From: an uncultured Bacteroidota bacterium
GTDB lineage: Bacteria > Bacteroidota > Bacteroidia > Flavobacteriales > Schleiferiaceae
Assembly (NCBI GenBank): GCA_913057235.1
Contig: CAJXNI010000003.1
Coordinates: 1-64,000, forward strand
Length of the DNA: 64,000 nt
Direction of reading: 5' to 3'
Both the position numbers and the translations under genes were made by a program. Under the pieces are notes generated by a model, which worked only from the letters and a program-made list of their open reading frames with translations, was not told the DNA's origin and made no database searches. The stretch's first letter is position 1. Each line of letters starts with the position of its first letter. Below, one piece after another: positions 33,618 to 57,857 of the stretch.

Positions 33618-34736
33618 TTAAGCTAAGGTTTTTTCAATGCTGGCCCACATCATTTCGGCAGAGCGGTCCCAACGGAAAACCTTTCCCCTTTCACGGCCTT
33701 TGGCAATAAGCTCTTTTCGCAGTTGGGCGTCATCGGTTTGTAAAAACGCTTGGGCTATTGACTCCTTGTCTCTTGAATTGCAAAGCAGGGCGGCATTTCC
33801 AGCCACTTCTGGCATGCTGGAGTTGGTGGCCGTAATTACCGGCACTTCACTTTTAAAGGCTTCCAAAATAGGAATGCCAAAACCCTCAAAATGCGAAACA
33901 AAGGCTAATGCTTGCGCAGAGGCCAACACTTCGTTCAGTTCTTCGCGCTCCAAGCGCCCCGTAAAAATGATATCGTTTTTAAACGGATGTTGTTGGTACA
34001 CTTGATCTAATTCTTGGTTCCAAAACATTTTTTCACCTACCACCACAAATTTGGCAAGGCCGCCCCTTTGCCGATAGATTTGATAGGCCTCCAGCATGCC
34101 ATCAATATTTTTACGTGGGTTTAACGCGCCAATAAAAATGAAGTAGGGCTTGCCGGCCGTTAGGGATTTTTTAATCTCATTTTGCTTTTCCCGAGCCAGG
34201 GGTTTGAAAAAGTCACCCACCCCATTGTAGACCAAGTCACATTTTTCGGCCGGCAGGCGATAGGTTTTTATTAAGTCTTCTCGTGAATACGCACTTACGG
34301 TAGCTACCCTTTTAGCAGCGTATGCATATTGTGGGAAATATTTGCGCAGGTACCAGCCTACTAGTTTACTGGTATTCTCTTTTTGATGTTCAAAATTAAT
34401 ATCGTGAATAACTGCTAAGCTGGGAGTGCTGCTTTTCAGCGGAACAAAGCCATCTGGCGAGACCAATAGTTGTGGTTTGAGTTGTTTTAATTTTTGGGGT
34501 ACGCTGTACTGAAACCACCACTGCCACAGCAAGGGGTGCCGGGTAGGAGGGTAGAGCACATGACCTTTCACGTTTTCGCCATAAATGAAATTGGGTTCAA
34601 AAGGGCGGTCAAATAAAAAATGCCATTCAATTTGCGGGTGTTGCTGCACCAGGCGCTTAAAAATTTCATGGGTGAACCAACCAATACCCTCTAATTTATG
34701 GGGGAGTAAAAACCGGGTGTTTACAGCTATTTTCAC
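33618..34736 (-). CDS. Glycosyltransferase family 4 (GT-B fold)
   Basis: 372 residues with a GTG start at 34736. The N-terminal acceptor domain starts MKIAVNTRFLLPHKLEGIGW. The donor domain has FIFIGALNPRKNIDGMLEAY, the family segment for the start of the donor half, and FVSHFEGFGIPILEAFKSEVPVITA, the EX7E region that binds the nucleotide sugar. GT4 enzymes build polysaccharides such as O-antigen or capsule; the sugar is unknown. It is divergent from the flippase gene with only 39 bases between the starts, and both starts have promoter-like boxes 4 bases away. Confidence 0.88.
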   Translation of the reverse strand: MKIAVNTRFLLPHKLEGIGWFTHEIFKRLVQQHPQIEWHFLFDRPFEPNFIYGENVKGHVLYPPTRHPLLWQWWFQYSVPQKLKQLKPQLLVSPDGFVPLKSSTPSLAVIHDINFEHQKENTSKLVGWYLRKYFPQYAYAAKRVATVSAYSREDLIKTYRLPAEKCDLVYNGVGDFFKPLAREKQNEIKKSLTAGKPYFIFIGALNPRKNIDGMLEAYQIYRQRGGLAKFVVVGEKMFWNQELDQVYQQHPFKNDIIFTGRLEREELNEVLASAQALAFVSHFEGFGIPILEAFKSEVPVITATNSSMPEVAGNAALLCNSRDKESIAQAFLQTDDAQLRKELIAKGRERGKVFRWDRSAEMMWASIEKTLA

Positions 34737-34740
34737 GCGC

Positions 34741-34748
34741 CAAATATA
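34741..34748 (-). promoter_or_regulatory. -7 box directly before the GT4 gene, predicts a leaderless mRNA
   Basis: Minus-strand TATATTTG, exact TAnnTTTG, followed by only GCGC before the GTG start at 34736. Confidence 0.5.
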
Positions 34749-34763
34749 GGCTCAAATAATATT

Positions 34764-34771
34764 TACCTTAG
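34764..34771 (+). promoter_or_regulatory. Near-match -7 box directly before the flippase gene
   Basis: TACCTTAG differs from TAnnTTTG at one base and is followed by only CCGC before the ATG at 34776, the same 4-base spacing as the exact boxes of engB, tsaE and the GT4 gene. Confidence 0.4.
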
Positions 34772-34775
34772 CCGC

Positions 34776-36224
34776 ATGCAGAAGCAGTTTGTGAGCAGCC
34801 TTAGTCTGTTGTTGTTTGTGAATTTTCTGGTGAAACCTCTTTGGATTTTTGGTATTGACCTTCAGGTGCAAAATCAGGTTGGGGTAGAGGCGTATGGTTT
34901 GTATGCGGCTATTTTTAGCCACACGCTCATGTTCAATATCTTGTTGGATTTGGGGCTTTCGCATTACAGCAATCGAAATATGGCCCAGAATCCTGAACGC
35001 TTGGCACAAAGTTTCTCAAGGCTAACCACCTTTAAATTTGCGCTGGGGCTTTTTTATTTGCTGGTGGCCTTAGTCATTGGCTTCTTTTTGGGCTATGTGC
35101 AAAAAGCCATTACGCTGTTGCTTCTGCTGGCATTTAATCAGTTCCTGCTTTCCCTTATCGTTTTTTTTCGGTCGCATTTAGCCGGGTTACACCTTTTTAA
35201 AGCGGATGCACTCATGAGCGTTTTAGACAAGCTGCTGACCATTTTGCTCTGTGGTGCAGTCCTCTACGGTTCAATGGAAAGTTGGCAAATGACCGTCACC
35301 CTTTTTGCGGCTTTGCAGGCCGTGAGCTTACTTATTGCAGCGGGCTTAGGTTTTATCATGCTTTACCGTAAAACCCAGCTATTTAAGTTTACCTTTCGCT
35401 TTAAGCGCGTTAAAAAGCAAATACGCGAAAGCTTGCCTTATGCGCTCTTAATTTTGCTCATGGCGATGTACACCCGGGTAGACAGTGTGATGCTTCAGCA
35501 AATTTCTGGGGAGTTTGAAAATGGCATTTATGCGCAGGCCTTCCGTTTGTTAGATGCCATCAATCAACCGGGTTACTTATTCTCGGTTCTGCTCTTACCC
35601 ATGTTTGCTGGAATGCTAGGGAGGAAGGAATCAGTGAAGGAATTGAGTCGCCTAGCTTTTACTTTGCTGATGGTGCTATGCGTGGGCGTGGCAGTAGCCG
35701 GAGCTACATCAGCGCGTGGCCTTATGGGTGCGCTTTACCACCACCATCCTGAACTATCTACTCCGGTTTTCCAATGGCTGGTTTTTTCTTCTATTGCCTT
35801 TGGCGCCACTTATATTTTTGGCACTTTACTAACGGCCCGGGGCAATTTGGGTACTTTAAACCGGGTAGCCTTAAGTGGTTTTGCACTAAACGTAATTTTA
35901 AATTTTATACTCATTCCCAATTACGGGGCCTATGGCGCAGCGGTAGCCACCGTAATTACCCAAAGTTTAACGGCCTTGGTGCAAATGGCCATTTCTTTTA
36001 AAATAGTAGGCTACCAATTTGCCACCAGTTTCTGGCTTCGTCTATTAGTTTTCGCTTTTTTGGCTGCCTTTTCGGCCTACTTATTAAGAGAGTGGGCTGG
36101 GCTGAATTGGATTCCCCAATTTTTAGGTGCTTTGGCATTTACCCTGCTGTGGGCCATGGTTTTAAAGCTACTTCCGCTTAAAGCGGCAATAGTTTTGGTA
36201 AAGCAACGTTTGGCATCTCATTAA
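34776..36224 (+). CDS. Polysaccharide flippase (Wzx-like, MATE/MOP superfamily)
   Basis: 482 residues with about 12-14 membrane helices. The N-terminal helix with NFLVKPLWIFGIDLQVQNQV and the later segment RVDSVMLQQISGEFENGIYAQAFR fit O-antigen/oligosaccharide flippases. These move lipid-linked sugar units across the inner membrane before polymerisation. It begins the plus-strand set of flippase, chain-length protein and O-antigen ligase-like protein, and faces the GT4 gene. Confidence 0.88.
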   Translation: MQKQFVSSLSLLLFVNFLVKPLWIFGIDLQVQNQVGVEAYGLYAAIFSHTLMFNILLDLGLSHYSNRNMAQNPERLAQSFSRLTTFKFALGLFYLLVALVIGFFLGYVQKAITLLLLLAFNQFLLSLIVFFRSHLAGLHLFKADALMSVLDKLLTILLCGAVLYGSMESWQMTVTLFAALQAVSLLIAAGLGFIMLYRKTQLFKFTFRFKRVKKQIRESLPYALLILLMAMYTRVDSVMLQQISGEFENGIYAQAFRLLDAINQPGYLFSVLLLPMFAGMLGRKESVKELSRLAFTLLMVLCVGVAVAGATSARGLMGALYHHHPELSTPVFQWLVFSSIAFGATYIFGTLLTARGNLGTLNRVALSGFALNVILNFILIPNYGAYGAAVATVITQSLTALVQMAISFKIVGYQFATSFWLRLLVFAFLAAFSAYLLREWAGLNWIPQFLGALAFTLLWAMVLKLLPLKAAIVLVKQRLASH

Positions 36225-36239
36225 AGAACTCAAATTAGC

Positions 36240-36247
36240 TATTTTTG
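36240..36247 (+). promoter_or_regulatory. -7 box before the Wzz-like gene
   Basis: TATTTTTG, exact TAnnTTTG, 21 bases before the ATG at 36269. A TTG inside the box could be read as a start for the open frame, but translation from there is unlikely if transcription begins downstream. Confidence 0.55.
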
Positions 36248-36268
36248 CCGCCTCAAAATCGGGACTTC

Positions 36269-37306
36269 ATGCCAACATCAACTCAAGACCGCGAAAATAT
36301 TTTTGACTCCACTAATCTGGTAGTGTACCTCTACAGCTGGCGCAAACCATTGCTACTAGTTACGCTGGCAGCCGCCTTGTTGGCGGCCGTATTTAGTGGG
36401 CCTTATTTTATTGAACCCAAGTATGAGTCTACGGTAACGGTATTTCCTACCACCACTAACTCTCTTTCCAAAGCCTTGCTTCCGCAGAAGTTTGCTTCAC
36501 GCGGACAGGATATTCTGGAGTTTGGGGCTGAGGAGCAAGCAGAACAGCTGCTGCAAATTTTAAATTCTGATCAGATCCGCAACCAGATTATTCAAAAATA
36601 CAATCTGGCCCGCCATTACGATATTGACAGCAACAGCAAATACTTGAAAACGGAACTGTATAAAACGTATGCTGATAATATTTCCTTTAGACGTACAGAG
36701 TACATGAGTGTGGAAATTAACGTGCTGGATACAGACCCAGATACGGCTGCCATGATTGCCAATGATATTGTGGTGCTTTTAGATCAAGTGAAAAATGACA
36801 TTCAAAAGGAACGCGCTAAAAAAGGCTTAGACATAATCAAAAGGGAGTACACAGCGCTAAAAGGCGATGTGAAAATGCTGGAAGACTCCTTGACCCTTCT
36901 ACGCTACAAAGGCGTGCATGACTATGAGTCGCAATCATCGGCCTTGAGTGAACAGCTAGCAACGGCCCTCATTGAAAAAAGCCCTAATAGCTCTGCCGTA
37001 AAAGCCATTGAGCAAAAACTAGACACCCTGGCCAAATACGGAGGTACCTACGTTTCTTTACGCGATGAGCTTACCTATTTAAAAGAGGAGGTGGTAAAAC
37101 TCAAAACTGCCTATGACCAGGCGCAGGTAGATGTTACCGAAGTTTTGCCAGCTACTTTTCAGGTGAACCGTGCCTACCCGGCTGAAAAGAAAGCCTATCC
37201 TATACGCTGGCTAATTGTGGTACTAAGTGCCTTAGGTGCTTTCACTTTAACCCTAATTGGCATTTTAATTTTAGATACTATCCGCAATTCAAGAAAAGAA
37301 GCCTAG
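36269..37306 (+). CDS. Polysaccharide chain-length determinant (Wzz-like)
   Basis: 345 residues from the ATG at 36269. Layout of Wzz/PCP proteins: a membrane segment at about residues 27-45 (PLLLVTLAAALLAAVFSGPY), a periplasmic helical part with coiled-coil character (about 60-300, including LDIIKREYTALKGDVKMLED), and a second membrane segment near the end (WLIVVLSALGAFTLTLIGIL). No cytoplasmic kinase domain is present. It probably sets chain length of the polymer made with the adjacent flippase and ligase-like proteins. One base separates its stop from the next start. Confidence 0.8.
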   Translation: MPTSTQDRENIFDSTNLVVYLYSWRKPLLLVTLAAALLAAVFSGPYFIEPKYESTVTVFPTTTNSLSKALLPQKFASRGQDILEFGAEEQAEQLLQILNSDQIRNQIIQKYNLARHYDIDSNSKYLKTELYKTYADNISFRRTEYMSVEINVLDTDPDTAAMIANDIVVLLDQVKNDIQKERAKKGLDIIKREYTALKGDVKMLEDSLTLLRYKGVHDYESQSSALSEQLATALIEKSPNSSAVKAIEQKLDTLAKYGGTYVSLRDELTYLKEEVVKLKTAYDQAQVDVTEVLPATFQVNRAYPAEKKAYPIRWLIVVLSALGAFTLTLIGILILDTIRNSRKEA

Positions 37307-37307
37307 G

Positions 37308-38765
37308 GTGAAAAATGCCTGGCTCGATAAAATTAATCGGACGCATGTTACCTTAGTGGGGCTGGCCGTGGCGCTGCTCAACGTGGTTTTCATTGTTACC
37401 GAAATGTACTGGGGTCTGCTTCTCCCGTTTATACTGGCGGTGGTGGCGCTCATTGTTTTATCGCTAGACAAGGTTCTACTTTTTCTGGTTTTTGCTACTC
37501 CGCTTTCTATATTTTATTTCAATCCAGATTTGGGTGTAGGAATTACCTTGCCCACCGAGCCCCTTTTTGTGGGCATAATGATTTTATTCTTTGCCAAGAT
37601 TCTGTACAGGGGAGGCTTTGACCGAAAGGTTTTCTTGCATCCCATTTCTCTGGCCTTGGTTTTCAACTTGTTGTGGGTATTGGTTACCAGCATTACTAGC
37701 GAGCTACCCTTGGTTTCCATCAAGTTTTTTATCGCGCGGCTGTGGTTTGTGAGTGTTTGTTTTTATCTGATGAGCCAACTCTTCAAAAAGCCTAAAAACA
37801 TAAAACTCTTTTTCTGGCTATACGCCATACCGCTTTCTATGGCCGTAATTTACACCTTGGTGGTGCACGCTCAAAATGGTTTCACACGCGAGGCTTCGGT
37901 TTGGGTGATGTTTCCTTTTTTTAAGGAGCATACGGTGTACGGGGCTGTGCTAGCGCTATTTATACCTATAACTTTCGTCTTGGCATTCATGTTAAATAAC
38001 AGCCTGAACAGCAGGTTATTGGCTAGTCTCTTATTGACCATTTTAGTGGTTGGGGTAATCATGTCATTTACCCGGGCCGCCTGGGTAAGTTTGGTAGCCG
38101 CCATAGGCGTGGCAGTGCTGGTGGTCTTAAAAATTAACCGCTTTACCTTTTTCCTAATTGTAGCGGCTTTTGCCGGATTGTTGTGGTTTTACCAGGATGC
38201 CATCTTAGACCGTTTTGAAAGCAATCAGGCTACCAGTAGTGATAACCTTACCGAACACGTTTCATCCATTAGTAATATCTCTACTGATGCCTCTAACTTG
38301 GAGCGCATTAACCGCTGGAAGTCTGCTTTACGAATGTTTCAGGAGCGCCCGCTGGTAGGCTTTGGCCCTGGTACCTACATGTTTTTGTACGCACCCTATC
38401 AAAAGCCTTATGAAAAAACCATCATCAGCACCAATGCCGGTGATTTGGGCAATGCCCACAGTGAGTACATTGGCCCTCTGGCCGAAAGTGGCGTTATGGG
38501 AATGCTGAGTGTTTTGGCACTGGTTTATTTTACTGTAACCACCAGCCTACGTGTATACTACGGTTTAGAAGATAAAGAACACAAGCGCATAGCGCTGGCC
38601 GTATTTATGGGATTAGTGACTTACTGGACGCACGGCTTGCTCAATAACTTTTTAGACATGGATAAGGCCGCTTTGCCCGTGTACGGATTTACGGCTTTAC
38701 TAGTGATTTATGAGCGGTACTATCTCCCCTCAAAACAGCAAGGACTGAAATCTGGGAAGGAGTAG
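37308..38765 (+). CDS. O-antigen ligase/polymerase family membrane protein
   Basis: 485 residues with a GTG start, about 11-12 membrane helices and one large periplasmic loop (about 300-400). The loop carries NRWKSALRMFQERPLVGFGPG and then AHSEYIGPLAESGVMG, the RxxW, GxGxG-like and HSxY/H features of WaaL/Wzy_C proteins. It is either the ligase that joins polymer to lipid A core or the polymerase itself. It ends the wzx-wzz-like set; the convergent second lpxD gene stops 5 bases away. Confidence 0.85.
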   Translation: MKNAWLDKINRTHVTLVGLAVALLNVVFIVTEMYWGLLLPFILAVVALIVLSLDKVLLFLVFATPLSIFYFNPDLGVGITLPTEPLFVGIMILFFAKILYRGGFDRKVFLHPISLALVFNLLWVLVTSITSELPLVSIKFFIARLWFVSVCFYLMSQLFKKPKNIKLFFWLYAIPLSMAVIYTLVVHAQNGFTREASVWVMFPFFKEHTVYGAVLALFIPITFVLAFMLNNSLNSRLLASLLLTILVVGVIMSFTRAAWVSLVAAIGVAVLVVLKINRFTFFLIVAAFAGLLWFYQDAILDRFESNQATSSDNLTEHVSSISNISTDASNLERINRWKSALRMFQERPLVGFGPGTYMFLYAPYQKPYEKTIISTNAGDLGNAHSEYIGPLAESGVMGMLSVLALVYFTVTTSLRVYYGLEDKEHKRIALAVFMGLVTYWTHGLLNNFLDMDKAALPVYGFTALLVIYERYYLPSKQQGLKSGKE

Positions 38766-47356: not shown

Positions 47357-48088
47357 TTACTTTTCGAAAGCCAATTCCTCCACATGGAATGTCCAAAGGC
47401 CCTTGTCGCTCAATTTGAGCCAGCCGTATTTTACATTGGATCCCTTGGTGAGCTTGAAGACTAAATACTTTTCTTGTTGACGCACCCATAAACCATGCTC
47501 AAGGGCATACATGGCACGGTGGTGGTGAGCGCTGGATTTATCTTCCTTTTTTAACAGCCAGGTGCCGGTATGCCAGTTGTTTTGAGCACTGGGCTGGGCA
47601 CCCCCGGCTATAACTGAAGGGCTGTAATAGCTGGGCTCCTCATAGTAAAACTCAGAGCCACTGCCCTGGCATTGATAGGCGCCAAGGGTATTGTAAAAAA
47701 CCGAATCAAAAGCGGCATTGGTTATGTAGCAGGTGCGCACGGTATCTACAAAGATTTTGCCGGCTACTTCAATTTGCGCGTGCAGGCAAACCAGTTCAAT
47801 GGTGGTTCTTTGGCCCCCACTTTGGTTGTAGTAAAAGTCATAATCCAAACGGAGGTCATCGGTGCCGTCTTGGTCAACATCTATGGCGAAGCGGTCTCTG
47901 AGTGTATGGTTGTCAAAAACATAAAGTGGCTCTCCGGCCGAACCAGTTTGGATGCTTACCCCGGTGGTATCACCTACAGCGAGAGTTTGGGCCATGGGCT
48001 CAGCCTGGGAGGGTGCTTTAGAACTTTCTTCCTGGCAGGCCCAAAGGCTCAAAAAAAGCAAGGCCAGAAAGCTTCTTGAAAATTGCAT
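47357..48088 (-). CDS. Hypothetical lipoprotein
   Basis: 243 residues, family not recognised. Lipoprotein signal with SLWAC (Cys18). The acidic stretch RFAIDVDQDGTDDLRLDYDF looks like a calcium-binding DxDxDG loop. The C-terminal part, KYLVFKLTKGSNVKYGWLKL, recurs in the broken neighbour at 48140-48891 (GYLVVRISGKDSYRYGWVKI). Thus a small paralogous lipoprotein family is present here as one intact and one broken copy. It converges on porX across the REP-like hairpins. Confidence 0.65.
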   Translation of the reverse strand: MQFSRSFLALLFLSLWACQEESSKAPSQAEPMAQTLAVGDTTGVSIQTGSAGEPLYVFDNHTLRDRFAIDVDQDGTDDLRLDYDFYYNQSGGQRTTIELVCLHAQIEVAGKIFVDTVRTCYITNAAFDSVFYNTLGAYQCQGSGSEFYYEEPSYYSPSVIAGGAQPSAQNNWHTGTWLLKKEDKSSAHHHRAMYALEHGLWVRQQEKYLVFKLTKGSNVKYGWLKLSDKGLWTFHVEELAFEK

Positions 48089-48139
48089 ATAAATAGGATT
48101 TGCTGGGTAAGATACTAAAAAGACCTTTGAAAGTCTAGA

Positions 48140-48891
48140 TTAGCTGGATGGCTTTTGGAGTGCGTAGGCGTGAAGTATAAAAGAACCAAATTGAGTAGTC
48201 TCGATCTTAACCCAGCCGTATCGGTAACTGTCTTTCCCACTAATTCTCACTACTAAATAGCCTTCGCCAATGCCCGTAAGTTTACTTTTGGTCCAGGCTC
48301 CTTTTGGGTTATGGTTTGGGTTCCATCCTTTATTTGAGACCCGCTTTCACGAAGCAATAGGTCTAGATTAAGCTAAGTCTGCTTGTCTGTGATGCGATCT
48401 GATTCATAAAAAACCTTTGGGCTGAAATAGTGCGTAGTTTTTTGGTGCAGTTTGGAGGGACCATCACACCAAGTGCTGTCTCGGCTGCCGCTGGGGTAAA
48501 TAAGCGTGTCAAAGTAGGGAGTTTTAGCGGGGCAAATACGCATGTCTTCCTGCATTTGTACAATGGCCACGTCCAAATTGGGGTTTAAGTTTTTCAATTT
48601 TAGCGTTTGGGTGAAACCACTATCTGTATTGTCATTCTCAAAAACAAACCACAAGTCTGGACTGCCGTCCTTAAAAAAATCAATAAAGGTGCTGTCCTTA
48701 GTTGTTTTATGGCTAAAGTCAGCTAAGGGCTTATCCATCCCTTGGTGAATATTAAAAAGGCTGGTATCACTGCTTAGGGTAAAAAGGCTTTTAGGGCCTG
48801 ACGGCACCTCTTTTTTGGTTTCTTCACAAGAAATTAAAGCCAACCAAAAGCTTAAGCAAAGTAGAATGGAAAAGCTAGGTTTTAATCGCAT
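48140..48891 (-). pseudogene. Broken paralogue of the neighbouring lipoprotein gene
   Basis: From the ATG at 48891 (MRLKPSFS, lipobox LISC) the frame is open to a TAG at 48373, giving 172 residues with the same order as the 47357 gene: a DGSPDLWFVFENDN segment, cysteine-containing middle, then THYFSPKVFYES. After the stop, a different frame carries the expected C-terminal end, GAWTKSKLTGIGEGYLVVRI and then KDSYRYGWVKI, finishing at the TAA 48140-48142. At least one frameshift and several stops separate the parts. The N-terminal lipoprotein could still be made in truncated form. Confidence 0.65.
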
Positions 48892-48971
48892 GGTTAAGGT
48901 ATTAGAAATAGATAGAGTCAAAGCTAAAAAAACAAGCTCAAAAGGCCTTCAAAAAGAAGCAAGGTAAATCC

Positions 48972-51435: not shown

Positions 51436-51804
51436 ATGAATTTTTTACGCAAACTAGCTACCTACATGCTGGGAGTGGGCTTAGGGGTAATTATGGTCTA
51501 CTTCATTTTTGGCGATAGAGACATTCAGTGCAATTACTTCCCTAATGACCGCGTGCTCTACGACCTACGCAAAAAAGAGTTGCAGTACAGTGAAAGCGTA
51601 GCCGCCCAAATGCAAGCCAATAGCTTAAACGATAGTGTTGTGATGTGGGCTCTGGAGCGCGGAAAGGTAGATTTTGAGCAAAGCCAAACCGAGAAGGAGC
51701 CTTGCAAAGAATATTTTATTGAATTAAAGGAGCCCGCCTATCAAATGAATATTCGGAATTGTGATAGTGTGGCAACTGTTCTTGAGCTAAAGAAGGTGAA
51801 ATAG
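51436..51804 (+). CDS. Small membrane-anchored protein, DUF4258-like
   Basis: 122 residues. One N-terminal membrane segment (about 8-27, YMLGVGLGVIMVYFIFG), then a soluble domain with three cysteines (CNYFPNDRVLYDLRKKEL; KEPCKEYFIELK; NCDSVATVLELKK). From memory of flavobacterial genomes, a DUF4258-type protein of this length and pattern is found near alanine dehydrogenase genes; this is a recollection, not a search. Function is unknown. Its end converges with the glycan islet. Confidence 0.55.
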   Translation: MNFLRKLATYMLGVGLGVIMVYFIFGDRDIQCNYFPNDRVLYDLRKKELQYSESVAAQMQANSLNDSVVMWALERGKVDFEQSQTEKEPCKEYFIELKEPAYQMNIRNCDSVATVLELKKVK

Positions 51805-51815
51805 CACTTTAACCA

Positions 51816-53435
51816 CTATTTAGAGGGCGCTAGTAAATCAAAAATATTCCTAAAAACTCCCGTGTAGCGCCAGCTGAAGCTTTGTTCCATATGATTTATT
51901 TTTCCCTCTAAAGCAGCTATTTTTTCCAAAGCCTCACGATAGTTATTCTGATATTCAGCTACTTGAAGCTTATTCTTACTTTGTTCATTTAGGTAATTAG
52001 CCAGAATAGCCGGTTTTAGGTAGCTAAGATGCTTTTCAAAAACCTTTACTTTATGTTCTAAATGATCGCTTTTATCAATATTTGAAGAAGAGCTTTCATA
52101 ATAAGCAGTGTAGGCCCCATTAAAACCAAATGAGCCTTTTTGAATCACCTGAATGATAAAATCCCAATCCTCAAAAAGAGAAAGGTTATTATCAAATTTA
52201 CATTGTTGTAGAATGGGCTTCGCTTTAAATAACGCGCAATGCAGCGCAATGCAGTTGAGTTCTAAAAGCGTAACAAGATCCAGGTGACTTTCATAGATAA
52301 AATTAAAAAGTGGGTTGGCCAGCTTTCCTTTGACACCGCTGAAAACTGCTATATGATCCAAGTTTTTTTGGCCGTATTCTAACAGTTGACTGAGATGGTT
52401 AGAGTCCCAGGTATCATCGTCATCTAAGAATATAAAATACTCCCCCTTGGCTTCCGCTAAAGCCGCGTTTGCTGCTTGAGGTCTATTAAGTTTCCTACCT
52501 GGCTCAACCACCCGCAAAGGATGGTTTCCGCAATAAGAGCCTAGATCCAGTTCGGGCGAACCAGAGGCATTTACCACTACGATTTCCACGTTAGGGTAGT
52601 CTTGAGCTTGAATGCAGTTCAGCGTCTCAGCCAAGGAAGCTCTGTTTAAAGTTCTAACTAGTACACTTATGAGAGGCGTATCACGGGAGGTTTTAGGTAC
52701 TGTTTGAGTTTTAGCCCTAATTTTCTCCCATTGAACATCGCCTTGAAGAATCTCTTTTTTTCTTTTTACAACAAAGGCTTCTGCCAAGCGGACATCTTTG
52801 GGAAGCGTGTAAGATCGGAAACGCTTGAGCCCCAATAGCTGGTCTAAATAGTTTTGCACTGAAAGCTGACTCTTAAAGCATTGCATAGATTGGGTCAGTT
52901 GTTCTTCCAGAGAAGTAATATCTATAAGCTTATTTGGGGTTAAGGGTTGTCCTACCTCATAGTACCAGAGCTGCAAATCATCGGGGTAACCCTGTAAGGC
53001 TTGGTGCAGGCAAAAGGTGAGCTCCAGGTGGTCAGGATGTATTTCGGTTTCTGAAGGCGTAAATATGAGCGTAGGTTTGAATTCACTGACTTGTTCAGTA
53101 ATTTTTAAAACCAACGCCACTCGCTGCGAATGGAGCATACGGTCAGAAAAGTTCCAAAATTCAGGTTGGGGAAGACCTAGTAATTCTGCGGCTTTGCTGG
53201 ACTCGTGCTTCCTTCTTTGTACGTACGCTTGTTTAGTTAACTCATTAGGAATAAAGGCGCCCCCATCGGTAACAATTATAGTTTTTATCAAGCTGCCCGC
53301 CTCCCGGAAATGATGCAGCGTTGCACCACAACCAAAAATTTCATCATCGGGGTGGGGGGCTAAAACCAAGATGCGCTCTTTAAAAAATGTTTTTTGCGCT
53401 TGGTAGGGCCTGTGGTTTGATTCAAGGTTTTTCAT
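51816..53435 (-). CDS. Fusion of a PIG-L-type deacetylase and a GT2 glycosyltransferase
   Basis: 539 residues. Residues about 20-230 are a PIG-L/LmbE deacetylase: LVLAPHPDDEIFGCGATL (zinc ligands His28, Asp31) and ETEIHPDHLEL (later His). Residues about 254-470 are a GT-A glycosyltransferase: ISVLVRTLNRASLAETLNCI, then FIFLDDDDTWDSNHL, the metal-binding acidic motif. A coiled-coil-like tail (QVAEYQNNYREALEKIAALE) ends the protein. The pairing suggests that an N-acetyl sugar is deacetylated and a further sugar is added, or the reverse. It is the last gene of the islet; the sulfotransferase gene stops 5 bases upstream. Confidence 0.85.
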   Translation of the reverse strand: MKNLESNHRPYQAQKTFFKERILVLAPHPDDEIFGCGATLHHFREAGSLIKTIIVTDGGAFIPNELTKQAYVQRRKHESSKAAELLGLPQPEFWNFSDRMLHSQRVALVLKITEQVSEFKPTLIFTPSETEIHPDHLELTFCLHQALQGYPDDLQLWYYEVGQPLTPNKLIDITSLEEQLTQSMQCFKSQLSVQNYLDQLLGLKRFRSYTLPKDVRLAEAFVVKRKKEILQGDVQWEKIRAKTQTVPKTSRDTPLISVLVRTLNRASLAETLNCIQAQDYPNVEIVVVNASGSPELDLGSYCGNHPLRVVEPGRKLNRPQAANAALAEAKGEYFIFLDDDDTWDSNHLSQLLEYGQKNLDHIAVFSGVKGKLANPLFNFIYESHLDLVTLLELNCIALHCALFKAKPILQQCKFDNNLSLFEDWDFIIQVIQKGSFGFNGAYTAYYESSSSNIDKSDHLEHKVKVFEKHLSYLKPAILANYLNEQSKNKLQVAEYQNNYREALEKIAALEGKINHMEQSFSWRYTGVFRNIFDLLAPSK

Positions 53436-53440
53436 CTGCG

Positions 53441-54271
53441 CTATTGAGTTTTGGCTTTACGCAGCATGGTTTTTTCAACGTATCTAAGGCTGTGTTTTTC
53501 TTCAATAACGGGCTCAGGATTAAGGCGCCAATCGTTCGGGTAATTCCAATACTGCATATAGGGCTCAAAGTAAGGTTTAAGAAGCTCGCAATCCTCTTGG
53601 GTAAACCAGTCTTTCCACTGACCGGATACCTTTGCGCGAGGAACATGGGACCAGCGCCCGTCCTGTGCAGGTGGATTTAGTGAAAAGCCCAAATATTTTT
53701 CAAGTTCCTGAGTTTTGTCTTCAATAAAATCCTCATAGCGGATGTGAAAATAGTGATCCAGGCTGTTCAAAAACCTGATGATTGAGGCGTACCGCGACTT
53801 TAAAAAATTGAGGTCCGATAATTCTACTTCATTAGCCATAGTCATAAGAACTTTATACAACTGAACACAGCTTATTCCTTGGGGGTGCTCTATTTTAGTG
53901 CTCCATAGTTCTAAAACTTTGTTGCGCTTGTCTTTATGGTTATAAATAGCGGGATGTAGCTGCGGTATGAAGTTTAGGCCGCTTACAAACCAATCTCTTG
54001 GGTCTCTGGAAAGGACAAGCTTTTTTTCAAAACGTCTAAAACTGTCAATTCCAGTTGGCTTGTTCCAATGCCACCATTTTCCATGAGTGTACCTTGAATC
54101 AGCTGGCATTATCACTTTAGCTAAGACCCCTTGTTCACAATCACCCGGCAAAGCCCGGTACTCTTTAGCTTCAAATAGTTCACGGGGGTTATCTTTAGGA
54201 TAATTGTGATGTAAAAGCTTGTATAAGCCCGTGGTCCCTGTTTTATATTCACCAAAGATTACTGTTCTCAT
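53441..54271 (-). CDS. Sulfotransferase-like protein
   Basis: 276 residues. The PAPS 5-prime phosphosulfate loop reads FGEYKTGTTGLYKLL (residues 6-20), close to the usual KxGTT pattern, and the 3-prime phosphate motif reads LVLSRDPRDWFVSGL, matching the RxPRDxxxS pattern. HIRYEDFIEDKTQELEKYLG is the typical later segment with conserved Tyr-Glu-Asp. These features point to transfer of sulfate from PAPS to a hydroxyl or amine of a glycan. The other islet genes suggest a surface polysaccharide acceptor. No PAPS-making genes lie in the window. Confidence 0.8.
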   Translation of the reverse strand: MRTVIFGEYKTGTTGLYKLLHHNYPKDNPRELFEAKEYRALPGDCEQGVLAKVIMPADSRYTHGKWWHWNKPTGIDSFRRFEKKLVLSRDPRDWFVSGLNFIPQLHPAIYNHKDKRNKVLELWSTKIEHPQGISCVQLYKVLMTMANEVELSDLNFLKSRYASIIRFLNSLDHYFHIRYEDFIEDKTQELEKYLGFSLNPPAQDGRWSHVPRAKVSGQWKDWFTQEDCELLKPYFEPYMQYWNYPNDWRLNPEPVIEEKHSLRYVEKTMLRKAKTQ

Positions 54272-54283
54272 CTATCTGGAAAT

Positions 54284-55279
54284 CTAGTAAAGATCAGCAT
54301 CACCTAAAGTATAGAAAAAGGGTATTTGAGGAGGCTGGTCATTGGCTAATTTAAAGCAAGGCTGCCATTTCCAGGGCTCATTAAAGGATTGAAAACCTGT
54401 CTTCTTAAGACTTGAGAATAATTTATTTCTGCTGGAAAGCCAAAGCTTTAAGGTTTTGTTTTTTAAAAAAGGCAGAGCAGTCATGCTGTGAACCACCTCT
54501 CTAATGGTCTTTTCTTGAGGAGAAACAAGCAAATCAACCAATACCACTTCTTTATTGGAAATTATTCTAAAAACGGCATAGCCTTCTGTATCCCGCGAAT
54601 TTGGTCTATGCAAATAATACTTTTGATACTGAACGGCTGGCCTTTGATCAAAGCGCCAATTCAAATAAGCCAAATCACGCACTACTGCAAAGGAGTAATC
54701 TTTGCTTAGAGATTGCCAGAGCTGATCTACTCGCTGGTCAAAATGGTCTACTTCTGTAAAATGAATATTCTTCCGCTTAAAGCGATTTAGAAGATGTGAT
54801 TTTACAGGAAGCTCCAAATAGCCTGGCTCAGGGTCTGCTTTGATAAAATTTAGTAGTAAGCTACCCAGTCGGTAAGATCGCTCTCCGGGAAACCCAAACT
54901 GCGGTTTGGATCCGATGGTTTTAGCGTATTCATCAAACCATTTTGCCGTTTCAACAAATAAACCCTGTCGTCCGCTAATCAGCCCTCGGTATTTCGGATG
55001 CGACATTATATCTACCGTTTGCCACCATATGGTGGTTTGACCATTCCTATGAACTCGGTAGAGCAGACATCCATAAGCCACAACTGGGTGGCCGTCTTCA
55101 TTGAAGCATAAGACCATGATGAATCCCTCTGGATTTTTTTCATATTTCCATTGAAACTCTTCGGTAGGCATTTCCTTGTTAAAGCAGGTGGACCAGAGCT
55201 TTTTGAATTTAGCTCGGTCCTCAGCTTTGTAGGGCCTAATTAAAAAGCTCCCCTGTGAGGTGCTTAATCGTTTCTCCAT
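54284..55279 (-). CDS. GNAT-like acetyltransferase, probably two GNAT halves
   Basis: 331 residues. The N-terminal half has the GNAT order: LIRPYKAEDRAKFKKLW, strands, then IMSHPKYRGLISGRQGLFVE, in which the R/Q-x-x-G-like acetyl-CoA loop is recognisable but not perfect. The second half (about 165-331) has a similar pattern with NWRFDQRP and DTEGYAVFRI, as in tandem GNAT proteins used in polysaccharide work. It probably acylates a sugar or amino sugar. It overlaps the GT2 gene by 16 bases, which points to translational coupling. Confidence 0.7.
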   Translation of the reverse strand: MEKRLSTSQGSFLIRPYKAEDRAKFKKLWSTCFNKEMPTEEFQWKYEKNPEGFIMVLCFNEDGHPVVAYGCLLYRVHRNGQTTIWWQTVDIMSHPKYRGLISGRQGLFVETAKWFDEYAKTIGSKPQFGFPGERSYRLGSLLLNFIKADPEPGYLELPVKSHLLNRFKRKNIHFTEVDHFDQRVDQLWQSLSKDYSFAVVRDLAYLNWRFDQRPAVQYQKYYLHRPNSRDTEGYAVFRIISNKEVVLVDLLVSPQEKTIREVVHSMTALPFLKNKTLKLWLSSRNKLFSSLKKTGFQSFNEPWKWQPCFKLANDQPPQIPFFYTLGDADLY

Positions 55280-56322
55280 TGCCAGTTCTTTAAGGCTTTA
55301 GAATTCTCATCTACAAGCCGCCTGTAGAGTGTTGAGACCTTAACCCTTTTTAAAAGAGAATATTCTAAAATTAAGTCTTGCTTTGAGCGGACATCACGGT
55401 CTACAAATTGTACGAAAGTTGGACTTGGTGCTATTTGCAAGCGAAGCTTCTTATTTTCCATTGGCGTTTCAAAAGAAAGCCTAACGGTTTCGCCCTGAAC
55501 TACCTCCGCTTCAGGTTGAGTGATTTTTACCTCTGCCTTACCTTTGAAGGGTTCGGGCTTGGCACCGTAATGCTTTTGCAGGTACGCTTTACGCGATTTT
55601 TCCGAAAAGGCTTGTTTTTTAGTACTAGGTGCCTGATCCCAAAAGTGTATAACTTCGGCTTTTGGAGCCACCACCGGAAAAAGCTGTGCCGCACTTAAAC
55701 GGGCGCAGAGATCGCTATCTTCATAGTACATAAAAAACCGCTCATCAAATAGCTCTGAGTTTTTAAAAAAAGAATGCTGGTAGTGCACTAGCAGGCAGGC
55801 TTCTGACAAAAAGCTTTGTTGGAAGGCCCTACTTTGTTGCCAAAAGTAGCTATGATTTTGATGATATTGCTGAATAAGAAGGGCCTCTTCCAACTGAGAA
55901 TGAACAGTCACCTGGTGCCAAACATTCAGGTAATAACTGTAGCCCAAAGCTGGGGGCATTCTAAAAGTCTTTGCTTCGTCCCAATAAAAACGGGGCCCGG
56001 CTAAAGCGGCTTCTGTTTCTTTTAACGCTTTAGGCAGATGCCTGGTAAAACCTTTGGTTGTACGGCAATCTGGGTTAATAATTAGGTAATACTTTGATGG
56101 GTATTTTTTCACCGCTTTATTTACCGCACGCCCGAAGCCTACATTACGGAGATGGTTAAATATGCTAATTTTTGAATCTATGCCTTGAAGCTCATTTAGT
56201 TTTTCGCGTGGGCTATTATTGGCAATTACAATTTGGCTAATTTCGGTTTCTAGCAATAAATCCCTTAGCAAGGGCGGTAAGAGGGCCTGGGTCTTGTAAT
56301 TGACAATTATAGCGGTAATCAT
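55264..56322 (-). CDS. Glycosyltransferase family 2
   Basis: 352 residues. GT-A fold: ITAIIVNYKTQALLPPLLRD at the start, then HLRNVGFGRAVNKAVKKYPS and YYLIINPDCRT, with the DxD-like Asp in NPDC; FFMYYEDSDLCARL is the acceptor-side ED motif of rhamnosyltransferase-like enzymes. The last 80 residues are a beta-rich tail of unknown role. It would add a sugar to a growing glycan. First complete gene of the islet on the minus strand. Confidence 0.85.
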   Translation of the reverse strand: MITAIIVNYKTQALLPPLLRDLLLETEISQIVIANNSPREKLNELQGIDSKISIFNHLRNVGFGRAVNKAVKKYPSKYYLIINPDCRTTKGFTRHLPKALKETEAALAGPRFYWDEAKTFRMPPALGYSYYLNVWHQVTVHSQLEEALLIQQYHQNHSYFWQQSRAFQQSFLSEACLLVHYQHSFFKNSELFDERFFMYYEDSDLCARLSAAQLFPVVAPKAEVIHFWDQAPSTKKQAFSEKSRKAYLQKHYGAKPEPFKGKAEVKITQPEAEVVQGETVRLSFETPMENKKLRLQIAPSPTFVQFVDRDVRSKQDLILEYSLLKRVKVSTLYRRLVDENSKALKNWQWRND

Positions 56323-56357
56323 ATCGACTAATATAGAAAAGCTTTGTTCTGCAAAAA

Positions 56358-56636
56358 CTAGCCACGGTGAAAGAATACAAGCCGAAAACCAGCGGCTACC
56401 AGCAGATCAATTTTTCGGGTAAGCGCTGGGTCAAAGGGGTCATGCTGTAAATAGGACAAAACTGGCTCTGCCCAGTGTGGATAGGGCTCAGGGCTCACTA
56501 AAGTAGCACGGTATTTCCCTAGCTTATTCAAGCCAGCTACCATTCTGAATGGGTTTTTAATACCGCCATAAGGGCGACTGGTTTCAACCAGAAAACCAAC
56601 TTTTTTAGGTGGAAAAATTTTGACGAAAAAAGACAT
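56358..56636 (-). pseudogene. Possible N-terminal fragment of a GT4 glycosyltransferase
   Basis: 92 codons. The start KKVGFLVETSRPYGGIKN and LNKLGKYRATLVSPEPYPHW look like the first half of a GT-B enzyme: a first strand, a glycine-containing loop (YGGI) and the next strand. The remaining 250 or more residues of such an enzyme are absent; the frame ends at a TAG, and the GT2 gene starts 35 bases later. Alternatively it is a small intact protein of unknown role. Nothing in the sequence settles this. Confidence 0.4.
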
Positions 56637-56690: not shown

Positions 56691-57857
56691 CTAATCCAGC
56701 CCCCTGCGTTTCAACTCACGCTCAATCAGTTTCATCTCGCGGCTGGTTTGGCCTCCTGCTGCTGAGTTTTCCTCGGCTCTGCGTATGAGGTAGGGCAAGG
56801 TTTCCTGTACCGGACCAAAGGGTAAATATTTCACCACGTTATAGCCTTCTTTCGCCAGGTTAAACGAAAGATTGTCACTCATACCGTAGAGTTGACTAAA
56901 CCATATTCTACGGTCATTTTTGGCCACTTCGTGTTTTTCCATCAGCTCTGCCAGGTAAAAAGAACTGTCTTCATTGTGGGTGCCGGCTACAATGCTCATT
57001 TGCTCCAGATTTTCAATCACAAATTGCACCCCATCGTTAAAACTTTTATCACTGGCCTCTTTACTGGGCTGTATCGGATCGGGGTAACCCTTTTCTTGGG
57101 CCCGTTCCCGCTCTTTTTCCATGTAGGCTCCGCGCACCAGTTTTACACCCAGTTTATAGTCTTCGGCTTTAGCCTGTTGCAACCGTTCTTTGAGGTAGTC
57201 TAACCGATCGGTACGGTACATTTGCAGGGTGTTGTAAATCTGCGCCTCTTTTTTGTTGAAGCGCTTCATCATCTCTTGGGTAAGCTCATCAATGGCGGGC
57301 TGAATCCAGGTTTCCTCCGCATCTATTAAAACCTTTAAGCCAAATTTATGGGCGGTGTAGCAAATCTCTTCCACCCGGTTTTTAGCGCGCGTCCAGGCAC
57401 GACTTTCAAACTCGGTTAGAGCATGGCCCTCACTGTATTTTTCTAAGAGGGCAAACTTGGCAATACCGGTTACTTTAAAAACGGCAAAGGGCACGCCCTC
57501 ATGCGAAGCCCCGTATTTTATGGTCTGTACAATTTTGTCTTTGGTGGCATCAAAATCGGCATCCGTTTCCTTGCCTTCCACTGAATAGTCCAACAAGGAA
57601 TAAACGTTGTGCTCCAACAGTTTTTTAATGATCTCTTCACACTCTTCAATGGTTTCCCCGCCTACAAATTGATCATAAACCGTTTGCTTAACTACCTCGC
57701 GTATGGGCAGGCGTAGTTTCATGGCCAGGCCGGCTGCTTTTTTGCCCAGACCTACCAAACTCTTACTGGCCACTAGTTTAAACAACCAGTAGGCCTTTTT
57801 TAATTGTGCATTACTCTTTAGTGAAAATGCGGTTTCCGTATCGTTAAAATCTAGCAT
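56691..57857 (-). CDS. Proline dehydrogenase
   Basis: 388 residues. A FAD-dependent enzyme that oxidises proline to pyrroline-5-carboxylate in proline use. The TIM-barrel family segments are clear: VFKVTGIAKFAL, KVLIDAEETWIQPAIDEL, KLGVKLVRGAYMEKERERA, VIENLEQMSIVAGTHNEDS and YNVVKYLPFGPVQETLPYLIRRAEEN. Length is that of single-domain eukaryote/Bacteroidota-type enzymes rather than PutA; no P5C dehydrogenase domain is fused or adjacent. It is divergent from aroB with 86 bases between starts. Confidence 0.93.
   Translation of the reverse strand: MLDFNDTETAFSLKSNAQLKKAYWLFKLVASKSLVGLGKKAAGLAMKLRLPIREVVKQTVYDQFVGGETIEECEEIIKKLLEHNVYSLLDYSVEGKETDADFDATKDKIVQTIKYGASHEGVPFAVFKVTGIAKFALLEKYSEGHALTEFESRAWTRAKNRVEEICYTAHKFGLKVLIDAEETWIQPAIDELTQEMMKRFNKKEAQIYNTLQMYRTDRLDYLKERLQQAKAEDYKLGVKLVRGAYMEKERERAQEKGYPDPIQPSKEASDKSFNDGVQFVIENLEQMSIVAGTHNEDSSFYLAELMEKHEVAKNDRRIWFSQLYGMSDNLSFNLAKEGYNVVKYLPFGPVQETLPYLIRRAEENSAAGGQTSREMKLIERELKRRGLD

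Follow-up and report, generated by a model that had tools for sequence, protein, structure and literature searches.

Genes of the islet

The window, i.e. the whole stretch of 64,000 nucleotides analyzed here, contains five minus-strand open reading frames at 51816-56636 that are separated by short gaps or overlap, just as the sequence-only reading of this DNA had described them. This islet is enclosed by two core genes, and a set of genes for handling polysaccharides is located some distance away:

33618..38765, GT4 (minus strand), Wzx flippase (plus), Wzz (plus) and Wzy/ligase-like protein (plus), assigned by Pfam; probable partner in export and polymerization
51436..51804, plus strand, conserved 122-aa core protein; left boundary, set by synteny
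51816..53435, minus strand, PIG-L·GT2 fusion, 539 aa (Pfam, full-length homologues in other phyla, intact motifs)
53441..54271, minus strand, PAPS-type sulfotransferase, 276 aa (Pfam Sulfotransfer_1, invariant residues)
54284..55279, minus strand, tandem-GNAT acyltransferase with Eis-like fold, 331 aa (Pfam, AlphaFold, Foldseek, homologues adjoining PIG-L·GT2)
55264..56322, minus strand, GT2 glycosyltransferase with a C-terminal extension, 352 aa (Pfam, match to a Desulfobacteraceae GT2)
56358..56636, minus strand, GT4 N-terminal remnant, probably non-functional, 92 aa (weak match to a GT4 N-terminus)
56691..57857, minus strand, proline dehydrogenase, a core gene; right boundary, set by synteny

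The sulfotransferase gene is separated by 5 nt from the gene of the fusion and by 12 nt from that of the GNAT protein, and the GT2 and GNAT frames overlap by 16 nt. Scans for promoters and terminators gave matches no more frequent than in shuffled sequence.

The fusion protein combines a PIG-L domain (Pfam, 2.5e-25, 89.9 bits with a cut-off of 28.2) and a Glycos_transf_2 domain (3e-16, 60.1 bits; cut-off 23.3). Its motifs PHPDDE, HPDH, DDDD and EDWDF are intact: the first two, which form the zinc site, are invariant across the alignment, as expected of a PIG-L/LmbE de-N-acetylase, and the last two correspond to the DxD and ED motifs of GT2 enzymes. The protein also has a short region resembling a coiled coil and, at its C-terminus, the tail motif S-F-S-W-R-Y-T-G-V-F-R. 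Assignment to BshB1, the bacillithiol deacetylase, was rejected, the score with TIGR04001 (NCBIfam) being 75.1 bits, far under the equivalog cut-off of 182.5. The separate GT2 protein matches Glycos_transf_2 with 39.3 bits (cut-off 23.3), and its residues 2-349 are 30% identical to a Desulfobacteraceae GT2 whose gene adjoins that of a GNAT protein. The GNAT protein itself, with an Acetyltransf_9 score of 29.9 bits (cut-off 25), an AlphaFold model of pLDDT 91 and Eis-type acetyltransferases among its best Foldseek matches (TM ~0.7), has the domain and the predicted fold of a GNAT acyltransferase. The 92-aa frame, for its part, has no Pfam matches; it weakly resembles the N-terminus of a Thiohalocapsa GT4, the gene of which adjoins a GNAT homologue, and is a remnant that probably has no function. 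All four remaining genes are intact and of full length.

An empty site in related genomes

The comparison of the locus among relatives, which had been proposed together with the islet, shows that it is not conserved core sequence. Of the 17 relatives compared, which are unevenly sampled and belong entirely to genera other than the source genus, 15 (11 genera) have ald, the gene of the 122-aa protein and the proline dehydrogenase gene together and lack the islet. The 122-aa protein gene in these genomes abuts or stands near the proline dehydrogenase gene, and the spacing between the latter and ald is 0.4-1.2 kb, as against 6.1 kb in the window. The islet genes as a set occur in none of the searched relatives. 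Taken singly, the GNAT gene was not found in any other sampled genome of the family, the sulfotransferase has only relatives of 26-37% identity elsewhere in the family, and the full-length PIG-L·GT2 fusion is encoded in none of 296 genomes of the order. Thus, with the site empty across 11 genera and the set missing from every searched relative, the suggested later acquisition of the islet is well supported, and its origin would be horizontal.

Base composition points in the same direction, albeit mildly. The GC content of the islet is 41.9%, as compared to 45.3 ± 1.9% in 4.8-kb stretches of a ~210-kb sample of the source genome, so that the AT-richness previously noticed by eye is real; 3% of these stretches have a GC content as low as that of the islet. 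In the flanking genes, GC3 is 0.51-0.57, whereas the four intact islet genes have values of 0.40-0.42. Since each gene alone falls only at the 11th-22nd percentile of the sampled genes, composition is a suggestive rather than a decisive sign of acquisition. As to the vehicle, a mobile element recognizable by border repeats was considered and rejected (the edges share no direct repeat of at least 8 bp and only one 8-bp inverted match), as was a recent plasmid or phage origin: the sulfotransferase has no plasmid matches, and two phage records match the PIG-L domain only.

A module recurring across phyla

Polysaccharide loci of Pseudomonadota, Desulfobacterota, Acidobacteriota and Balneolota encode homologues that match the PIG-L·GT2 fusion over its full length. 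The homologues come from 80 loci, mostly of other phyla, and 61 of the frames span both domains. Their neighbors are mainly glycosyltransferases, Wzt, Wzm and methyltransferases. A homologue of the tandem-GNAT protein is encoded in 44 of 77 such loci, within two genes of the fusion in 32 and strictly adjacent to it in just 22; in six deltaproteobacterial loci, the order GT2-GNAT-PIG-L·GT2 is kept, with similar overlaps. GT2, GNAT and PIG-L·GT2 form a module, one that several phyla share in their polysaccharide loci. Our literature search found no description of a module of GT2, tandem GNAT and PIG-L·GT2, nor any work combining a PIG-L deacetylase, O-antigen, a glycosyltransferase and a sulfotransferase; one paper brings PIG-L, GNAT and glycans together.

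One of the closest parallels is a Desulfobacteraceae locus (L162, L170), Wzm-GT4-MT-GT2-GNAT-Wzt-PIG-L·GT2, which has the order GT2-GNAT-X-PIG-L·GT2 of the window, with Wzt filling the slot that the sulfotransferase holds here; over the full length, the GT2 and GNAT proteins are ~30% and ~31% identical to those of the window, respectively. The Methyloprofundus plasmid pINp10 (AP023241.1) encodes a PIG-L·GT2·WbsX·RgpF protein whose N-terminal part is built in the same way (32% identity, covering 90% of the query), likewise in a polysaccharide locus with a GNAT homologue nearby; unlike the islet, this locus adds the WbsX and RgpF domains, carries Wzm/Wzt, and no sulfotransferase was found in it. 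The LPS core cluster of Pseudomonas (PMC8005017) offers a further parallel: this glycan locus likewise has neighboring PIG-L and GNAT genes (PA5002 dnpA and PA5003; PSPTO_4989/4990), although reports of the cluster mention neither a fusion of its PIG-L to GT2 nor a sulfotransferase; it has been proposed that DnpA deacetylates GalNAc, whereupon L-Ala is added (PMC10579960). It should be kept in mind that the islet proteins are only 20-38% identical to their relatives and that the window fusion is a long branch of uncertain placement in the tree, so their function may have drifted.

The sulfotransferase

Although its Sulfotransfer_1 score, 23.8 bits, barely exceeds the cut-off of 22, the same family is matched by all 16 aligned homologues, the motifs KTGTT and RDPRDxxxS are intact, and GTT and RDPRD...S are invariant in 17 of 17 aligned sequences; the 5'-PSB loop and the 3'-PB motif of PAPS-dependent sulfotransferases are thus both present. 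A single-sequence structure model (pLDDT 35) was too poor to use. The source genome encodes an APS kinase (217 bits), which makes a supply of PAPS likely. The relatives of this enzyme form a small subfamily that adjoins Wzt in 22 of 23 loci. In sister genera, its members, 26-37% identical to the window protein, reside in Wzm-Wzt-sulfotransferase-GT2-GT2 loci (L062-L068), i.e. in a glycan-export context; these differ from the islet in that the exporter is present and no PIG-L or GNAT gene was seen.

That the islet serves a single glycan pathway, as originally suggested, is supported for at least three genes by the order kept in other phyla. Since no other examined PIG-L·GT2 locus clearly carries a sulfotransferase of the window type, the membership of the fourth is argued from operon-like packing and from the glycan-export context of its relatives. 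Sulfotransfer_1 families accept broad substrates, and the enzyme, missing from homologous modules elsewhere, might be a passenger that acts on a substrate other than the glycan, such as a lipid, a protein or a small molecule; given its tight packing between GNAT and PIG-L·GT2 and the occurrence of its relatives inside Wzm-Wzt-GT2-GT2 loci, we regard this as unlikely.

Export route

Neither Wzt nor ABC2_membrane is encoded in the source genome; ABC2_membrane is present in eight of eight relatives tested. At 34776-38765, the window encodes Wzx, Wzz and Wzy-like proteins, the components expected of a Wzx/Wzy-dependent system. Since Wzm/Wzt is lacking, the islet glycan would most likely leave via this set at 34-39 kb, and the earlier notion that the islet is separate from it is probably wrong in terms of function. 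The missing exporter, together with the GT4 remnant, could also be taken to mean that the islet is what is left of a larger imported polysaccharide locus whose product is no longer made. This is quite unlikely, considering that four of the five frames run full length, their catalytic motifs being intact and their start and stop sites closely packed, and that the Wzx/Wzz/Wzy set is at hand.

A proposed pathway

We suggest, as the moderately probable reading, that an acquired operon, inserted at the conserved convergent junction of the 122-aa protein and proline dehydrogenase genes, deacetylates, re-acylates and sulfates a surface glycan exported by Wzx/Wzz/Wzy. Sugar addition by the GT2 proteins would take place in the cytoplasm, on an acceptor linked to a lipid or to LPS, and would include at least one N-acetylhexosamine. 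From this amino sugar the N-acetyl group would next be stripped by the PIG-L domain, and the tandem GNAT protein would acylate the freed amine anew, with another acyl group. The sulfotransferase would transfer sulfate from PAPS onto the same glycan, probably at a hydroxyl, and the Wzx/Wzz/Wzy set would probably flip and polymerize the product. Decoration with acyl and sulfate groups, as envisaged in the sequence-only reading, is well motivated by family, motifs and fold, the chemistry itself being what we infer.

The pathway would resemble heparan NDST in joining the de-N-acetylation of a glycan to its sulfation, but the NDST deacetylase belongs to another family than PIG-L. It is improbable that the islet encodes a split version of the NDST route, with the fused GT2 adding GlcNAc, PIG-L N-deacetylating it, the sulfotransferase N-sulfating the amine to heparan-like GlcNS, and GNAT acting elsewhere: the 5-nt spacing of the two genes, the likely PAPS supply and the existence of N-sulfated bacterial exopolymers (reportedly 75-80% N-sulfated in Pontiella; PMC7356697) would fit, but the two activities reside in separate proteins and would be separable because their genes occur apart in homologous loci, where the deacetylase is paired with GNAT (in 44 loci) and sulfotransferases are not among the commonest neighbor families, while members of the sulfotransferase subfamily adjoin Wzt, and the loci read show no PIG-L gene. 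Were this route true, it would be a two-protein bacterial counterpart of heparan NDST, making an N-sulfated surface glycan with enzymes that differ in descent from those of animals.

The acyl-swap pathway that we favor has wider implications. The module predicts that N-acetyl groups on surface sugars are exchanged for other acyl groups after transfer, which is testable; the version in the window would add sulfation, in a genome that lacks the ABC exporter accompanying the homologues. As of 2020, the enzymes with which prokaryotes sulfate polymers of the glycosaminoglycan type were called unknown (PMC7356697), and a small operon joining deacetylation, acylation and sulfation would be a useful entry point.

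Location and composition of the islet

The sequence-only reading had described five minus-strand ORFs as an AT-richer, probably acquired islet for a sulfated and acylated glycan. All five are present; four of them are full-length and closely packed, with gaps of 5 nt and 12 nt and one overlap of 16 nt. The window regions considered here are:

33.6-38.8 kb: GT4, Wzx, Wzz and a Wzy/ligase-like protein
47357-48921, minus strand: two adjacent ORFs resembling related short secreted/lipoprotein genes, between the porX-like gene and tsaE
51816-56636, minus strand: the islet, with full-length PIG-L·GT2 fusion, sulfotransferase, GNAT and GT2 ORFs and a 92-aa fifth ORF

A composition scan bore out the AT-richness noted by eye: the GC content of the islet is 41.9%, as against 45.3 ± 1.9% for samples of equal length from this genome (3% of the samples are as AT-rich), and third-position GC is 0.40-0.42 in the islet genes versus 0.51-0.57 in the adjoining core genes. 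Single islet genes fall only in the 11th-22nd percentile among sampled genes of this genome, and the composition is compatible with acquisition without proving it.

Later acquisition is favored by comparison of the locus across relatives. The order conserved in relatives of the same family is porX-like gene, tsaE, ald, the gene for a 122-aa protein, ProDH, aroB and aroA. For 17 relatives, ald and ProDH could be placed together on a single contig, in convergent orientation; in 15 of these (11 genera) they lie 0.4-1.2 kb apart with no islet between them, as compared to 6.1 kb in the window genome; from the 122-aa gene to ProDH there are ~30 bp or less in relatives G012, G040, G018, G047 and G014. 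Since two relatives, G003 and G054, hold other, different inserts at or near the ald/122-aa/ProDH junction (L060:9571-14209 and L082:9203-11895), it looks like an insertion-tolerant site. By eye, the G003 insert comprises a sigma-factor gene with its neighbors and a gliding-type secreted protein. In the closest relative, G007, the 122-aa gene is upstream of aroA, not beside ProDH, and there are contig breaks nearby (L055:12495-12890); we read this junction as rearranged. No border repeats were seen at the islet edges. The islet GNAT is absent from every other sampled genome of the family, and 296 genomes of the order yielded only weak GNAT matches (in 4 genomes) and no full-length PIG-L·GT2 protein. 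Sulfotransferase relatives (26-37% identity) occur within the family only in three genera, with none among 395 genomes drawn from the phylum.

A conserved module in other phyla

A full-length homologue of the fusion was found by tblastn on a Methyloprofundus plasmid, extended there by WbsX and RgpF domains; a GNAT homologue lies close by, and the plasmid record also contains Wzm/Wzt. When ~85,000 species genomes were scanned with an alignment of two sequences, at least 80 loci matched, in Nitrosomonas and other Pseudomonadota, Desulfobacterota, Acidobacteriota, Chloroflexota and Balneolota. Among the matches listed, 61 ORFs cover both domains, and the C-terminal tail motif S-x-S-W-[RK] is found in 28 of these versus 2 of 843 other ORFs; 44 of 77 loci also have a gene for a same-family GNAT (at most two genes away in 32), and six deltaproteobacterial loci keep the order GT2-GNAT-PIG-L·GT2, with gene overlaps of the same kind. 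In two of these six, Wzt sits where the window islet has the sulfotransferase. The families encoded around the fusion are chiefly GTs, Wzt, Wzm and methyltransferases. In L126:3411-5243 and similar Nitrosomonas loci, a GNAT with a fused N-terminal methyltransferase domain directly precedes the PIG-L·GT2 gene. In the tree, the window fusion groups with a Balneolales fusion (98/90) but on a very long branch, which does not allow its source to be named. We did not find the module on which the islet builds described.

Predicted decoration and export

The sulfotransferase and the other aligned members, 17 in all, match Sulfotransfer_1 and have PAPS-binding motifs in common (in the islet protein KTGTT and RDPRDWFVS, both intact); its single-sequence model gave no usable fold. 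As APS kinase is encoded in the window genome, PAPS is likely to be available. Its relatives in sister genera adjoin Wzt at 22 of the 23 loci, in most cases accompanied by two GT2 genes. Since the enzyme stems from a separable context, sulfation would best be taken as a second decoration; that the enzyme is merely a passenger is improbable. The conserved Wzm-Wzt-sulfotransferase-GT2-GT2 loci of sister genera (L062-L068) probably make up a separate system for a sulfated glycan in this family; by eye, L062-L064 carry a second sulfotransferase-like gene.

The 92-aa ORF has no Pfam match; from its weak similarity to the N-terminal part of a Thiohalocapsa GT4 (L140) that directly adjoins a GNAT homologue, we read it as a remnant. 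The catalytic motifs of the fusion are intact (PHPDDE and HPDH in PIG-L, DDDD and EDWDF in GT2), and decay of the locus is even less probable than a passenger sulfotransferase.

The predicted GNAT model (pLDDT 91, 21 aligned sequences) is a tandem GNAT; among solved structures it comes closest to Eis-type acetyltransferases (TM about 0.7) and N-myristoyltransferases. Because both are amine acyltransferases, the model fits an enzyme that would acylate the amine freed by PIG-L. Related GNATs are also encoded at an EPS locus of Azospirillum and, in Sinorhizobium, close to a PIG-L gene at a locus that has NeuB/NeuC/NeuD-like genes (so read by eye). As PIG-L·GT2 repeatedly occurs together with an amine acyltransferase, we favor an N-acyl swap, in which PIG-L would free the amine of a glycan sugar and the GNAT would acylate it; N-sulfation of this amine by the sulfotransferase is the most doubtful alternative. 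A published proposal of such a swap concerns GalN(L-Ala) of the LPS core in Pseudomonas (PMC10579960), and in the core gene cluster, too, PIG-L and GNAT genes are neighbors (PMC8005017).

The window genome (99.97% complete) contains no match to Wzt and no ABC2_membrane (polysaccharide exporter permease), the latter being present in 8 of 8 relatives tested. With the Wzx/Wzz/Wzy-like set at 33.6-38.8 kb at hand, the islet product would therefore be expected to use that route, which would contradict the proposed functional separation of the islet from the wzx-wzz set. The earlier interpretation is partly supported, with acquisition retained and functional separation probably wrong. The islet represents a new version of known systems for glycan decoration, with a conserved gene module at its core.
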